Source of the DNA: Pseudomonas sp. SJZ074
Lineage (GTDB): Bacteria; Pseudomonadota; Gammaproteobacteria; Pseudomonadales; Pseudomonadaceae
Length of the DNA: 64,000 nucleotides
Direction of reading: 5' to 3'
Assembly: GCF_007828215.1 (NCBI RefSeq)
Contig: NZ_VIUE01000027.1
Location: 1 to 64,000 of the forward strand
Part shown: positions 38,307-44,016 of the stretch, piece after piece
Layout: each line of letters begins with the position of its first letter
How positions within the stretch are numbered: the stretch's first letter is position 1
The notes under the pieces: generated by a model
What the model was told of the DNA's origin: nothing
What the model saw: only the letters and a program-made list of their open reading frames with translations
Databases searched by the model: none
Made by a program: the position numbers and the translations under genes

Positions 38307-39005
38307 TCAGAACTTGTAACCCAACCCCACCATGTAGATCCATGGGTCCACATCGACATTCACCTTGGCCCGGGTGCCACCGGCCACTGCGTTGTTGTCG
38401 ACATACGCCGTGGTATCGATGTCGATGTAACGGATCTGGCCATTGACCATGATGTTGTCGGTCAGCATGTAGTCGGCGCCCACTTGCCATGCCATGCCCC
38501 AGCTGTTGCTCGCCCGGAAATTGCTGAAGCCGTTGGCGCTGGCGTCGCTGCCGACGTGTTCGTCATAGATCCAGGTGTAGTTGATGCCGGCGCCGACATA
38601 CGGTTGGAATGCCGATTTGGCGTCGAGTGGGTAGTAGACCAGACTCAGGGTCGGCGGCAGATGCTTGAGGCTGCCGAGCTTGCCGTTGGCCGCGCCCAGG
38701 GCGGTGCCCTTGATCTTCACGTCGTGCTCGAACGGCGAGGCTGCCAGCAGCTCGATGCCCAGGTGGTCGGTCATCATGTAGGCGAAGTTCAAGCCCAGTT
38801 GCGTATCACTGCTCATGGTCGCCTTGCCGCCCAGGTCGGCACCGGCCAACGGGCCGCGGTCGACCTTGACGCTGGAACTGTCGGCTTGCGGATTGACGGT
38901 GATGGCGCCGGCGCGAACGATGATATCGCCGGTTGTATGGGCCTGGGCGATTGGGGCCGCGAGTGCGAGGGCGACGAGGGAAGTGCTGAGCAAGGACTTG
39001 TGCAT
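38307..39005 (-). CDS. oprG: OmpW/OprG-family outer membrane protein
   Basis: A 232-residue eight-strand beta-barrel protein. A signal peptide is clear (KSLLSTSLVALALAAPIAQA) and the chain ends in phenylalanine after VGLGYKF, as needed for outer-membrane insertion. Alternating hydrophobic residues run through the rest. The family forms a lateral channel for small hydrophobic molecules. The ATG at 39005 has GGAG upstream. It stands next to the epimerase pair and zinc operon as oprG does in P. aeruginosa. A possible ANR/FNR site is at 39068-39081. Confidence 0.9.
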   Translation of the reverse strand: MHKSLLSTSLVALALAAPIAQAHTTGDIIVRAGAITVNPQADSSSVKVDRGPLAGADLGGKATMSSDTQLGLNFAYMMTDHLGIELLAASPFEHDVKIKGTALGAANGKLGSLKHLPPTLSLVYYPLDAKSAFQPYVGAGINYTWIYDEHVGSDASANGFSNFRASNSWGMAWQVGADYMLTDNIMVNGQIRYIDIDTTAYVDNNAVAGGTRAKVNVDVDPWIYMVGLGYKF

Positions 39006-39067
39006 GGGGGCTCCAGCGGACATTTGAAAAGGATGTCCCATGGTACGGAGCGCTCTGGACCGGTCTT

Positions 39068-39081: not shown

Positions 39082-39111
39082 TGAAAGTGTGATGAGCACC
39101 TCTAAGGCCCC

Positions 39112-39195
39112 TTCGCGAGCAAGCCCGCTCCCACAGTTTAACGAGTTCCTTCAGGAGGAATGCAGTCAAATTGTGGGAGCGGGCTTGCTCGCGAA
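39112..39195. repeat. REP pair upstream of oprG-like gene
   Basis: TTCGCGAGCAAGCCCGCTCC (39112-39131, arm continuing to 39136) and its inverted copy at 39172-39195, between the DUF3299 gene end and the oprG promoter region. Confidence 0.93.
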
Positions 39196-39228
39196 AGCTA
39201 TCTCACCGGCAATAACGAACCATCGGAT

Positions 39229-39762
39229 TCACTCCGGCAGCTCATACACATAAATCTTCTCAGCTTCCATCTGGTACCCGGCATCGGCCAGTTCGCTGGT
39301 GGACGGCTTGACCTGCATCGGCCCTTCGACCCAGTACGGCTGGTACAGCTCATCGAGCTTCACCCCGACTTCGCTTTTCACATGCACGATCTGATTCGAA
39401 GGCGGTGGCGGCACATGGATGCAGGCGCCGAAATACGGCACCAGCAAAAAGTCTGTGGTACGGCCCTCCTCGCTGACTTCCAGCGGCACGATGTAGCCCG
39501 GCAAGCGAATCTGCTGGCCGTCGAGCGCCTTGACCACCGGAGCGTTGGGCAAGTCCTGTTTGGCGGCCGGGGCGGATTCGGCGGACAGTGCATTGCCCAT
39601 CTGCGACAGGTCATGCAGCGGGGTCATGTTTGGTACTTCCGGCGGCGCGTCGGGCGGGATCATTTCTGACCAGGCCAGGTCCCTTGGCTCGGCCGCCCAC
39701 AGCGGCAGGGCGACCATCATCAACAGCGCAAGCAGGGCGCGGGGCATCTTCAATGTCCTCAT
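39229..39762 (-). CDS. DUF3299 periplasmic protein of a zinc-type operon
   Basis: A 177-residue exported protein. The signal peptide is seen in MPRALLALLMMVALPLWAAEP. The conserved domain has LPGYIVPLEVSEEGRTTDFL and VPYFGACIHVPPPPSNQ, with a Cys-x-His pair that could bind metal. The ATG at 39762 overlaps the permease stop (ATGA); another ATG at 39747 would shorten the leader. Last gene of the operon. Function is unknown; the operon context points to zinc. Confidence 0.83.
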   Translation of the reverse strand: MRTLKMPRALLALLMMVALPLWAAEPRDLAWSEMIPPDAPPEVPNMTPLHDLSQMGNALSAESAPAAKQDLPNAPVVKALDGQQIRLPGYIVPLEVSEEGRTTDFLLVPYFGACIHVPPPPSNQIVHVKSEVGVKLDELYQPYWVEGPMQVKPSTSELADAGYQMEAEKIYVYELPE

Positions 39763-41024
39763 AAACGGATCGACAAGCCGTCGGCCAACGATTGGCGATA
39801 GGCGCGCCAGGCTGGCACGCTGCCCATCAGCAGGGCGGCGATCAGGATGCCAGCCATGAGCGTCCATTCATATTCGCTTGGCCAGCTCAGCGGCAGGTAC
39901 AGGCCATAGGCCGATTGTACGTAACCCTGGGCGGCGCCGATGCCGATATACAGCAAGGCCAGCCCGGCGGCCACCCCGGTCAACGCCAGGGCAAACGCTT
40001 CCAGCACCAGCAGGCTCGCGATGTGCCACGGCCGCGCACCCACCGAACGCAAGATCGCCATCTCCCGGCGGCGCTCGTTGAGGCTGGTGAGAATCGCCGT
40101 GAGCATGCCGATCAACCCGGTCAGGACCACGAATAGCGAAATCACGAACAAGGCTTTTTCCGCCGTGCCCATCAGGCTCCACAACTCTTGCAGGGCCACG
40201 CCAGGCAGGATTGCCAGCAACGGCTCGCCGCGGAATTCATTGATTTCGCGCTGCAAGGTAAAGGTGGAAATCTTGCTGTTGAGGCCGAGCATGAACGCGG
40301 TGATGGCTTGGGGTGTCAGGTCCATGTTGCGGGCCTGGTCGGCGCTGATGCGACCGCTGCCCTGGGCCGGCACGCCATTCTTCCAATCGATGTGAATCGC
40401 TTCCATGCCGCCGAGGCTGATGTGTAGCGTGCGGTCTACTGGGGTGCCGGTGCGCTTGAGGATGCCGACCACGGTGAAAGGCTTGTCGTCATGCTTGACC
40501 AGGCTGATCGCCGCCACGCCGTGGGCCAGCACCAGTTTGTCGCCGAGCTTGTAATGCAACGCCTCGGCCACTTCGGCACCGAGCACCACTTCGAACGGAT
40601 CGGTGGCAAAAGCTCGACCATCGGCCAGTTCCAGGTGCTGCTGGCGGCCGTACTGGTAATGCTCGAAATAGGCCTCGGTGGTGCCCATTACCCGATAGCC
40701 ACGATGGGAGTCACCGAGGGACATGGGGATCGCCCACTTCACTTTCGGGTTGCTGGCGAAATGTTCGAAGCTGTCCCAGCGGATGTTATTGGTGGCGTTG
40801 CCGATGCGAAACACCGAGTACAGCAGCAGGTTCACCGAGCCGGAGCGAGCGCCGACGATCAGGTCGGTGCCGCTGATGGTGCTGGCAAAACTGGCTTTTG
40901 CCTCGGTGCGCACCCGCTCCACCGCCAGCAGCAGGCAGACCGACAGGGCGATGGCGAAGGCAGTGAGGATCGCAGTGAAACGGCGGTTCGCCAGGCTGGC
41001 CATGGCTAGACGGAGCAAATACAT
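39759..41024 (-). CDS. ABC transporter permease, FtsX/MacB-like
   Basis: A 421-residue permease with one N-terminal membrane helix (FTAILTAFAIALSVCLLLAV), a large periplasmic domain (about residues 45-280) and three C-terminal helices, the layout of the MacB/FtsX/LolC family. SLNERRREMAILRSVGARP in the cytoplasmic loop is the coupling segment for the ATPase. Such permeases usually drive mechanical work in the periplasm rather than transport through the membrane. The start is one base after the ATPase stop. Confidence 0.9.
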   Translation of the reverse strand: MYLLRLAMASLANRRFTAILTAFAIALSVCLLLAVERVRTEAKASFASTISGTDLIVGARSGSVNLLLYSVFRIGNATNNIRWDSFEHFASNPKVKWAIPMSLGDSHRGYRVMGTTEAYFEHYQYGRQQHLELADGRAFATDPFEVVLGAEVAEALHYKLGDKLVLAHGVAAISLVKHDDKPFTVVGILKRTGTPVDRTLHISLGGMEAIHIDWKNGVPAQGSGRISADQARNMDLTPQAITAFMLGLNSKISTFTLQREINEFRGEPLLAILPGVALQELWSLMGTAEKALFVISLFVVLTGLIGMLTAILTSLNERRREMAILRSVGARPWHIASLLVLEAFALALTGVAAGLALLYIGIGAAQGYVQSAYGLYLPLSWPSEYEWTLMAGILIAALLMGSVPAWRAYRQSLADGLSIRL

Positions 41025-41025
41025 C

Positions 41026-41736
41026 TCAGACCTCGAGTGGCTTGGCGGCACGATTGAGATCGGCCAGCGAGAGGTGGCGGTCGAACAGCGATGCCAGGCT
41101 CTGATCATGGCTGACGAACAGCAGGCTTGAACCGGCCTCGCGGCATTCGGCAAACAGCAACCGCAGGAAGTTTTCCCGGGCGTCATAGTCCAGGGCTGAG
41201 GTCGGTTCGTCGGCGATTACCAGTTCCGGTTGGCCGATCAACGCCCGGGCGGCGGCGACCCGCTGCTGTTGGCCGATAGACAGCGAGTCGGCGCGGCGCT
41301 CCAGCAGATTCGCATCGGTCAGCCCCAGATGGGTCAACAGCGTGGCGGCAGCCTGGTCGATGCTGCCGTGACGCTGGATGGCCCGCTGCGCTCGCAGTTT
41401 GGAGAAGTGGCAGGGCAGTTCGACATTCTCGCGCACCGAGAGAAACGGCAGCAGGTTGAACTGCTGGAAGATGTAGCCGGTGTGGTCCACGCGAAAGCGG
41501 TCGCGGCTGCCCGCACCCAGTTCGGTGAGCGACTGGCCGAGCAGATGGACGCTGCCGCGATCCGGCGTCTGCACGCCGCCCAGCAGCCCCAGCAAGGTGG
41601 TCTTGCCACTGCCGCTGGGGCCCTTGAGGAACAGGGTTTCGCCGGCTTCGAGGCGAAAGGCCGGGATATCCAGCAGTGGTGGTTGCCCGGGCCAGCTGAA
41701 GACCAGGTCGGACAATTCGATGAGTGCTTGGGTCAT
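41026..41736 (-). CDS. ABC transporter ATP-binding protein (LolD/MacB type)
   Basis: A 236-residue ATPase. Walker A GPSGSGKTT (about residues 39-47), Q-loop FQQFNLLPF, signature LSIGQQQRVAAARAL, Walker B LVIADEPTSALD and the H-loop FVSHD are all present, so it should hydrolyse ATP. It pairs with the downstream FtsX-like permease. Confidence 0.92.
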   Translation of the reverse strand: MTQALIELSDLVFSWPGQPPLLDIPAFRLEAGETLFLKGPSGSGKTTLLGLLGGVQTPDRGSVHLLGQSLTELGAGSRDRFRVDHTGYIFQQFNLLPFLSVRENVELPCHFSKLRAQRAIQRHGSIDQAAATLLTHLGLTDANLLERRADSLSIGQQQRVAAARALIGQPELVIADEPTSALDYDARENFLRLLFAECREAGSSLLFVSHDQSLASLFDRHLSLADLNRAAKPLEV

Positions 41737-41768
41737 GTTGGCCGAAGTCAGGGTAAATGGAGTAGCCC

Positions 41769-41862
41769 CTGTGGGAGCGGGCTGGCTCGCGAAAGCGGTG
41801 TGTCAGACACCCTCTGTGTTGGATGTGCCGGTCTCTTTGCGAGCCAGCCCGCTCCCACAGGG
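41769..41862. repeat. REP pair inside the zinc-type operon (GGCTGGCTCG variant)
   Basis: Inverted arms 41769-41794 and 41837-41862 with the less common GCTGGCTCGCGAAAG sequence lie between the His-rich gene and the ATPase gene, which are on the same strand. Confidence 0.92.
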
Positions 41863-41876
41863 ATGATTCGCAATAC

Positions 41877-42467
41877 TCAGAATTTGAGTGCCGGCGCTTC
41901 AGGCGTCAATTCCCCGCCTTGCTGGCCCTTCGGGCCGATCATCTGCACCAGAATTTTATGGGTGGCCGGGAAGGTCTTGAAAAGCGGTGCCAGGTTCAGT
42001 TGCGTCAGGGAACCAGGCGCGACACAGCGGAACTGGTAGCGAGCGTGGATTTCGCTGTGTTCGTGGTGCTCGTCGCCATCGTCATCGGCATCTTCGGCGT
42101 GATCTTCGTGATCCGGCTCGTCGCCGAACAGCGGGCTTTCCAGTTCCTGCTGCTCCAGGGAGCATTTGGCATCGGCCAGAATGATCAACGCCGCCGGCTT
42201 CTCCAACTGCTTGCGGACAGCGGCCACCTTAGCCTTGTCGGCATCGCTGGTGGCGGCGTGTTCGAAGCCCACCAAATTCATGGCCGGGCTCTCCAGTTCC
42301 AATTCCAGGGTCTCGCCGTCCAATGAGGCATTGAGGCGGCCAACGCCGTGTTCATGGGCACCCAGGCTGCCATGTTCATGATCGTGGTCATGGTCGTGCT
42401 CGACCGCGGCGTGAGCGACAGCCAATGGCAACAGGGCGAAAGGCAAAGCGAGAAGCAGACGACGCAT
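41877..42467 (-). CDS. zrgA: His-rich periplasmic protein, DUF2796/ZrgA-like
   Basis: A 196-residue exported protein with a signal peptide (RRLLLALPFALLPLAVAHA). The mature start is very His-rich (VEHDHDHDHEHGSLGAHEHG) and there is a second acidic/His cluster around residue 120-140 (EPDHEDHAEDADDDGDEHHEH). The fold matches the DUF2796 family, which includes the zinc-uptake protein ZrgA of Vibrio. It probably binds zinc in the periplasm and hands it on. A Zur-like box lies 35 bases upstream. First gene of the operon with the ABC and DUF3299 genes. Confidence 0.85.
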   Translation of the reverse strand: MRRLLLALPFALLPLAVAHAAVEHDHDHDHEHGSLGAHEHGVGRLNASLDGETLELELESPAMNLVGFEHAATSDADKAKVAAVRKQLEKPAALIILADAKCSLEQQELESPLFGDEPDHEDHAEDADDDGDEHHEHSEIHARYQFRCVAPGSLTQLNLAPLFKTFPATHKILVQMIGPKGQQGGELTPEAPALKF

Positions 42468-42496: not shown

Positions 42497-42514
42497 GTTA
42501 TGTAATCTTATAAC
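42497..42514. promoter_or_regulatory. Zur-like box upstream of the zrgA-like gene
   Basis: GTTATGTAATCTTATAAC has GTTAT and ATAAC ends; the inner GTAAT-CTT-ATAAC (42502-42514) matches the GTTAT-N3-ATAAC Zur pattern with one mismatch. It is 30 bases before the zrgA-like start, in a promoter position. Confidence 0.6.
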
Positions 42515-43822: not shown

Positions 43823-43921
43823 GGGAATCTCGTAGAACGCTTGAATGGGGCAACTATACGGCGTGGTGGTGGGTGGCTGAAAGCGGGTTGGTCTTTCGCC
43901 CTGTGGTGTCTGACAGGACGC

Positions 43922-44016
43922 CTTCGCGGGCAAGCCCGCTCCCACAGTTGATCTGCAGTGGAGACAACATTCGCGTTCACTCTGGATCCCCTGTGGGAGC
44001 GGGCCTGCTCGCGAAG
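43922..44016. repeat. REP pair between methyltransferase and cnoX
   Basis: CTTCGCGGGCAAGCCCGCTC (43922-43941, arm to 43947) and its imperfect inverted copy at 43991-44016. The two arms carry different variants (GCGGGCAAG and GGGCCTGC), so the pair is less regular than others here. Confidence 0.9.

Follow-up and report, generated by a model that had tools for sequence, protein, structure and literature searches.

Composition of the zrg operon

The window analyzed here, a stretch of 64,000 nucleotides from Pseudomonas sp. SJZ074 (contig NZ_VIUE01000027.1, positions 1 to 64,000), carries on its minus strand a four-gene zrg operon of this plant-associated Pseudomonas, which is of a known kind and for which zinc shortage is probably the trigger. 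The genes lie exactly where an earlier note on this DNA had placed them (39229-42467): zrgA (41877..42467) encodes a His-rich periplasmic zinc-binding protein of the PA4063 type (196 residues), and is followed by genes for an ABC ATPase of the ZrgC/PA4064 type (41026..41736, 236 residues), a MacB/FtsX-type permease of the ZrgB/PA4065 type (39759..41024, 421 residues), and a DUF3299 protein of the ZrgE/PA4066 type (39229..39762, 177 residues). A gap of 140 bases separates zrgA from the ATPase gene, just 1 base lies between the ATPase gene and that of the permease, and the latter shares 4 bases with the DUF3299 gene; operon status was judged from this spacing and the common strand. Among named relatives, the one closest to the DUF3299 protein comes from Pseudomonas mediterranea (99% identity). 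Of the 80 named Pseudomonas loci retrieved along with it, 77 have all four genes, some of the stretches stopping at contig ends.

Each product falls into the expected Pfam family (E-values of 8e-54 for ZrgA, PF10986; 5e-31 for ABC_tran, PF00005; 6e-19 and 3e-14 for FtsX and MacB_PCD in the permease; and 6e-49 for DUF3299, PF11736). The PF10986 cut-off is passed by ZrgA, as is that of PF11736 by the DUF3299 protein (166.1 bits, cut-off 22). ZrgA does not reach the cut-off of the NCBIfam equivalog NF047873, ZrgA_Zn_trans (124.9 bits, cut-off 185), and is therefore filed only as a protein of the PF10986/PA4063 type. Structure entries are matched by ZrgA (PDB 7ahw, PA4063, E 4.6e-57; PDB 8ezw, a zinc-binding protein that is presumably V. 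cholerae ZrgA, E 1.7e-16) and by the DUF3299 protein (PDB 4hsp, PA4066, E 7.4e-58). A PF10986 ZrgA, an ATPase and permease encoded separately in the same operon, a DUF3299 protein, and a Zur-type box together place the locus, on sequence grounds, within the Zrg system. The earlier note's descriptions of a His-rich ZrgA-like protein and of a parallel with PA4063-PA4066 are thereby upheld.

Relation to described systems

Both PA4063-PA4066 and ZrgABCDE have been described, with zinc-binding ZrgA structures and a MacB-like permease, in the literature (PMC8561739, PMC9820375, PMC11481552, PMC10393844, PMC9817125, PMC13083405, PMC8531726). According to four of these papers, the solved structures of PA4063 and V. 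cholerae ZrgA both bind zinc, the MacB layout is published, and the operon is possibly ancestral in Pseudomonas (PMC8561739, PMC9820375, PMC11481552, PMC10393844). The operon in the window is the counterpart of these systems and is itself not new. It shares with P. aeruginosa PA4063-PA4066 the same four families and a Zur-type box. The V. cholerae and V. parahaemolyticus ZrgABCDE systems likewise combine ZrgA, a MacB-like permease, an ATPase, DUF3299 (ZrgE), and Zur control; however, no match to DUF2607 (ZrgD) was found among the seven window proteins scanned, and the NF047873 cut-off is missed.

The permease shares its FtsX and MacB_PCD fold with MacAB-TolC, but in the window ATPase and permease are two genes, score only 24 of 966 bits on the NCBIfam MacB model, and come with an invariant His/Asp set; no MacA-type partner was found among the four operon proteins and three neighbors scanned, the rest of the genome not being searched for MacA or TolC. 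LolCDE, FtsEX, and HrtBA have the FtsX-type ABC fold in common with the window permease, whose partners are instead ZrgA and DUF3299, and the NCBIfam cut-offs for LolCE, LolD, FtsE, and FtsX are missed (43.5 bits against 362.45 for lolCE; 151.6 against 307.75 for LolD). Zur control and zinc starvation are common to ZnuABC, whereas the binding protein and permease families differ: the ZnuABC (cluster A-I) families PF00950 and PF01297 gave no match among the four operon proteins at E 0.1. The host genome holds znuA, a Fur-family gene, an ABC ATPase gene, and znuB elsewhere.

The Zur-type box

The published Zur consensus GWWAYWNNNTWHCR has one match in the window, at 42501-42514 on the minus strand, within an imperfect palindrome (42497-42514) 5′ of zrgA. 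By itself this match is no better than chance, with 1.24 expected in the window, and the box is credible because it is conserved across upstream regions of the family. Footprinting of 120 family loci left 117 usable, which with the window gave 118 rows, not de-duplicated and including many close kin; the best palindrome match scores 9-10 of 12 in all 118 zrgA upstream regions (base shuffles get to 9 in about 4% of cases), and the published consensus is present in 101 of them. Scoring was against a 13-base Zur palindrome. In 60 of these rows, the box begins 27-51 bases ahead of the start codon that was chosen. The earlier claim of a Zur box is thus borne out by conservation, at the level of sequence. 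The consensus is also matched between znuA and zur of the host, 25 bases ahead of the zur reading frame. Outside the genus of the window, a strong Zur-type palindrome, one whose score no more than 2 of 200 shuffles attain, lies upstream of 10 of 26 zrg loci, with scores of 12 to 14 of 14 in five of them (L212, L213, L193, L195, L196). A genome-wide scan with the published consensus was uninformative, giving 80 + 80 (160) matches compared to 91 + 71 (162) for the reversed control. Binding of Zur with zinc to the PA4063 promoter has been reported from an electrophoretic mobility shift assay (PMC8531726).

Distribution of ZrgA, permease, and DUF3299

ZrgA scores over its cut-off in all 59 genomes of the window's genus, the host included (the genus as the collection defines it, which may not contain P. 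aeruginosa). In a phylum sample of 299 genomes, ZrgA is over the cut-off in 44 and DUF3299 in 60, and a Zrg-class permease (a search match with E < 1e-90) occurs in 49 genomes from 19 families. Both permease and DUF3299 accompany ZrgA in 42 of its 44 genomes; at the thresholds used, both are missing from G179, whose ZrgA match contains stop codons, and from G273, where ZrgA adjoins CobW, DUF1826, and Fur-family genes in what we take to be another zinc-starvation setting. A DUF3299 gene is present in every one of the 49 genomes with a Zrg-class permease, which ties DUF3299 to the permease more strictly than ZrgA. All 12 phylum-sample genomes of the window's family have two DUF3299 matches, and a second, solitary DUF3299 gene was seen at G000:C23:24444-24881 (L170:9921-10472).

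The gene neighborhoods of ZrgA vary outside the window's family. A CobW-type GTPase, Fur-family, MerC, or DUF1826 gene lies beside ZrgA in 5 of 14 scanned loci (L188, L190, L196, L206, L219), and the other nine have neighbors without a zinc link, for example an MFS transporter (L195) or a GAF kinase (L198). At L188:3705-6750 a transporterless ZrgA stands in a row with CobW-type GTPase, DUF1826, and Fur-family regulator genes. Two loci of different families (L180:3279-5480 and L206:8173-10407) have a gene for an S46 serine peptidase after their zrg components.

Invariant residues in three of the components

The permease contains six residues, D54, D105, H168, H178, D197, and H211 (codons within 40392..40865, minus strand), that do not vary in 27 of 27 aligned permeases, the other 26 being 38-85% identical to that of the window. 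A larger set of 149 Zrg-class rows, with many near relatives and repeats of one protein, gives the same result: 13 rows were dropped because the segment ends were not both covered, and none of the 136 rows scored departs from the six residues. All six lie in the stretch that aligns with the periplasmic domains of MacB-type permeases. The predicted model of the permease (mean predicted local distance difference test, pLDDT, 87.8) matches structures of MacB, LolE, and other FtsX-type permeases which, with the FtsX and MacB_PCD domains, agrees with the layout proposed in the earlier note. H168 and H211 are missing from five further FtsX-type permeases detected in the genome, which agree at single positions (D105 once, H178 once, D197 twice); beyond the membrane part, this alignment is unreliable.

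In ZrgA, H38, H40, E69, H137, C102, and C148 are invariant (28 rows), and H38/H40/E69 have the spacing of His35/His37/Glu66 in the zinc site common to PA4063 and V. cholerae ZrgA, a comparison of spacing and not of a residue alignment to the latter. The Cys-x-His motif that the earlier note had pointed out in the DUF3299 protein (C114 and H116, 39415..39423, minus strand) is real and is invariant in 44 of 44 and 27 of 27 DUF3299 rows, solo copies included. The motif residues of the ATPase are invariant in 26 aligned rows. ZrgA, permease, and DUF3299 protein, as judged by alignment, all bear invariant residues of the metal-ligand kind, and the permease set hints that zinc is what the machine handles.

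A His-rich permease insert in genomes without ZrgA

Clues to where ZrgA may act come from seven genomes with a Zrg-class permease and no ZrgA over the cut-off (L179, L180, L228, L229, L230, L231, L232), of which L230 was not counted. In five of the six counted permeases (L179, L180, L228, L229, L231) a His-rich insert follows H211 in the periplasmic domain; the segment counts 44 His among 158 residues in L179, 34 among 154 in L180, 6 among 84 in L229, and 8 among 72 in L231. More than two His after H211 occur in just 4 of the 136 scored rows (L179, L180, L229, L231), all of them without ZrgA. Four of the five permeases with an insert belong to family f8, whose ZrgA-bearing members L196 and L198 have no insert, and the fifth (L179) to family f21. 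Because the insert is found in permeases of genomes that lack ZrgA, these few independent events suggest that the insert may do the job of ZrgA and that ZrgA may work at the segment after H211. A strong Zur-type palindrome is present at three of the six loci without ZrgA (L179, L180, L228). The L228 permease (L228:7226-8553) reads as two overlapping frames, diverging close to a short-period repeat of His and Glu, through either a real break or a sequencing slip, and its insert was not scored.

Distant cousins in alkaline phosphatase operons

The same permease search returned 12 more distant cousins (E 1e-67 to 1e-21). Seven of these were aligned, and all seven keep the six residues, with H107, E267, and E289 lost; 6 to 14 His follow H211 in six of the seven, and two do so in L242. 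All eight loci with a strong A3-type OB protein have the same gene order, namely alkaline phosphatase-family protein, small OB protein, ATPase, and permease. The phosphatase was assigned by Pfam in three loci and by tblastn similarity in the other five, at no more than 27-28% identity in L243. By annotation, the same gene row is also found on two plasmids of Paracoccus (L246, L247). Across the phosphatase operons L238-L247, the OB protein has a CPFC motif and the FtsX-type permease is mostly His-rich. Nine of ten of these loci were tested for a preceding Zur-type palindrome and eight had none, the score in L247 being reached by 1 of 200 shuffles, and regulation therefore gives no support for a zinc-starvation role of the cousins.

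The small OB proteins of these operons are likely, although not certain, to be homologous to DUF3299, on the strength of bridge proteins and a structure match to 4hsp. Specifically, the bridge protein of L236 passes PF11736 (29.2 bits, cut-off 22), and those of L234 and L235 lie just under it (21.1 and 21.5 bits). The cousin OB protein A4 gave no PDB match by sequence, and the profile comparison with DUF3299 is weak (hhalign E 3.3e-4, probability 38%). A model of the cousin OB protein (mean pLDDT 72.9, 8 sequences) has 4hsp as the sole structure under E 0.001 in Foldseek (E 2.7e-5), with a VIA Z of 9.9 and a root-mean-square deviation of 3.3 over 113; the next rows are generic OB folds at 8.7.

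Zinc import and its alternatives

The role of the MacB-type permease in zinc acquisition is disputed between import, export of pyochelin-cobalt, and periplasmic hand-off. The earlier note had proposed a periplasmic zinc-handling machine; the conservation described above favors direct periplasmic handling of zinc, and the mechanism itself we infer. A zinc acquisition machine is most likely, with import given a small lead over hand-off. That the operon is specifically a Zur-repressed machine carrying zinc inward is a tentative reading, to which we give not quite an even chance, and zinc is probably the direct cargo. According to this import reading, zinc shortage would cause Zur to leave its box and the operon to be made, as shown for P. 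aeruginosa, and ZrgA would gather periplasmic zinc, as the proteins of P. aeruginosa and V. cholerae have been shown to do. Its docking point on the permease may lie close to the segment that follows H211, as the exchange of ZrgA with the His-rich insert suggests, and zinc would pass from ZrgA to a putative metal site of invariant His and Asp in the periplasmic domain. ATP-driven motion of the FtsX-type permease would release the ion inward, supplying the cytoplasm beside or instead of ZnuABC. The DUF3299 protein, an OB fold in which Cys-x-His is invariant, would act as a regular partner by taking up zinc or gating the site. In the published accounts, loss of zrgA on top of znuA impairs growth of V. 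cholerae without zinc, and loss of PA4065 in a P. aeruginosa znuA zrmB strain gives less growth and a higher zinc-demand reporter (PMC11481552). Among the genomes, G183 and G291 have a Zrg-class permease, at most a weak ABC-3 match, and no ZIP match, the only such absence among 11 genomes checked for ZIP (seven pass). The apparent lack of both classical importers favors import by Zrg in these two, other transporters not having been searched.

Several observations weigh against import. No ABC-3 match was found in 6 of the 44 ZrgA genomes (G065, G151, G264, G327, G132, G277), with weak matches only in G183 and G273; all six, however, have a ZIP transporter over the cut-off and thus give no proof that Zrg imports alone, which lowered our odds for import and raised those for hand-off. 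A strong palindrome is absent from 16 of the 26 zrg upstream regions outside the window's genus (e.g., L199, L204, L209, L210, L189), in part because the true first gene is not established, and the permease of L232, from a genome without ZrgA, has no insert after H211. The six invariant residues form a single site only putatively. To our knowledge, the solved FtsX-type permeases are exporters, extractors, or signal transmitters, and none is a known ion importer. In the experimental reports, deletion of PA4065 in the znuA zrmB strain left cell zinc unchanged and raised cobalt and pyochelin (PMC11481552), loss of PA4065 made no difference in moth larvae, the zinc affinity of PA4063 is only micromolar, and single knockouts of V. 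cholerae zrgD and zrgE had no effect, the five-gene knockout being very slightly worse than that of zrgABC. The unchanged cell zinc, the FtsX/MacB/LolE architecture of the permease, the constant company of DUF3299, the ZIP transporters in the six genomes without ABC-3, and the alkaline phosphatase-family gene that leads all eight cousin operons would suit mechanotransmission, in which ATP moves zinc among periplasmic proteins (ZrgA, DUF3299, apo-enzymes, or the binding protein of another importer), none of it crossing the inner membrane. We consider this possible, although we would sooner expect otherwise: G183 and G291 lack both a strong ABC-3 and a ZIP match, the phosphatase need not be a zinc client, and zrgA matters in V. 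cholerae without znuA, such that its effect is not just to feed ZnuA. Read more broadly, Zrg could be one branch of an unrecognized FtsX-type ABC class in which ATP powers metal transfer between periplasmic proteins and not classical import, a proposal that we find no less doubtful. Its core would consist of the ATPase, a permease in which the set of three His and three Asp is fixed, and an OB protein of the DUF3299 type whose Cys is invariant; its clients or donors would vary by lineage, including ZrgA, the His-rich loop of the permease, the alkaline phosphatase-family protein, and TonB receptors.

Two outward-directed readings appear far less probable. In one, which has been proposed for PA4064/PA4065, the machine exports pyochelin, either free or complexed with cobalt: intracellular levels of both pyochelin and cobalt are reported to rise when PA4065 is deleted in the znuA zrmB strain, and the accumulation of cobalt to disappear upon loss of pchE (PMC11481552). 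As a general cargo, pyochelin is unlikely, since the system is kept in all hosts and the cargo is seemingly not made by most: ZrgA is present in 59 of 59 genus genomes, but the salicylate-siderophore marker TIGR01803 is over its cut-off in only 9 of 59, with the host at 50.7 of 73.35 bits. This marker presumably covers PchB-type salicylate enzymes, including those of other siderophores, and its matches under the cut-off are unspecific (present in 10 of 14 control genomes). The spread of Zrg-class permeases over 19 families and the lack of a MacA-type gene in the operon and three scanned neighbors also argue against such export, which we regard as most improbable; the published effect may be indirect or an added role in P. 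aeruginosa. Outward removal of a metal, be it zinc or another, by efflux or by extraction from periplasm or membrane would agree with kinship to the exporters MacB and HrtB and with the HlyD/CusB-like gene that adjoins cousin locus L236. It is, however, hardly more plausible, given the Zur-type box, the zinc-starvation neighbors, and the TonB-dependent receptors that adjoin cousin loci L234 and L235.

In the open-access literature searched, we found no mention of the invariant residue set, the exchange of ZrgA for a His-rich insert, or the phosphatase cousin operon, and these make the disputed mechanism approachable by point mutations and binding tests. If hand-off between periplasmic proteins holds true, it would represent ATP-driven movement of metal ions between proteins outside the cytoplasm, and a first function for DUF3299.

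Repeats and neighboring genes

The gap between zrgA and the ATPase gene holds a paired inverted repeat (41767..41862; I4, 27-nt arms, 96% complementary) that resembles what we assume to be REP elements. It sets the window apart from PA4063-PA4066 as described, the P. aeruginosa DNA itself not having been compared, and might separate the expression of zrgA from that of the remaining genes. Copies related to this repeat flank the operon at 39110-39198 and 43905-43949. The next gene downstream, on the same strand at 38307-39041 of the window, encodes an OmpW-family porin; in P. aeruginosa the OmpW homologue OprG presumably adjoins PA4066.

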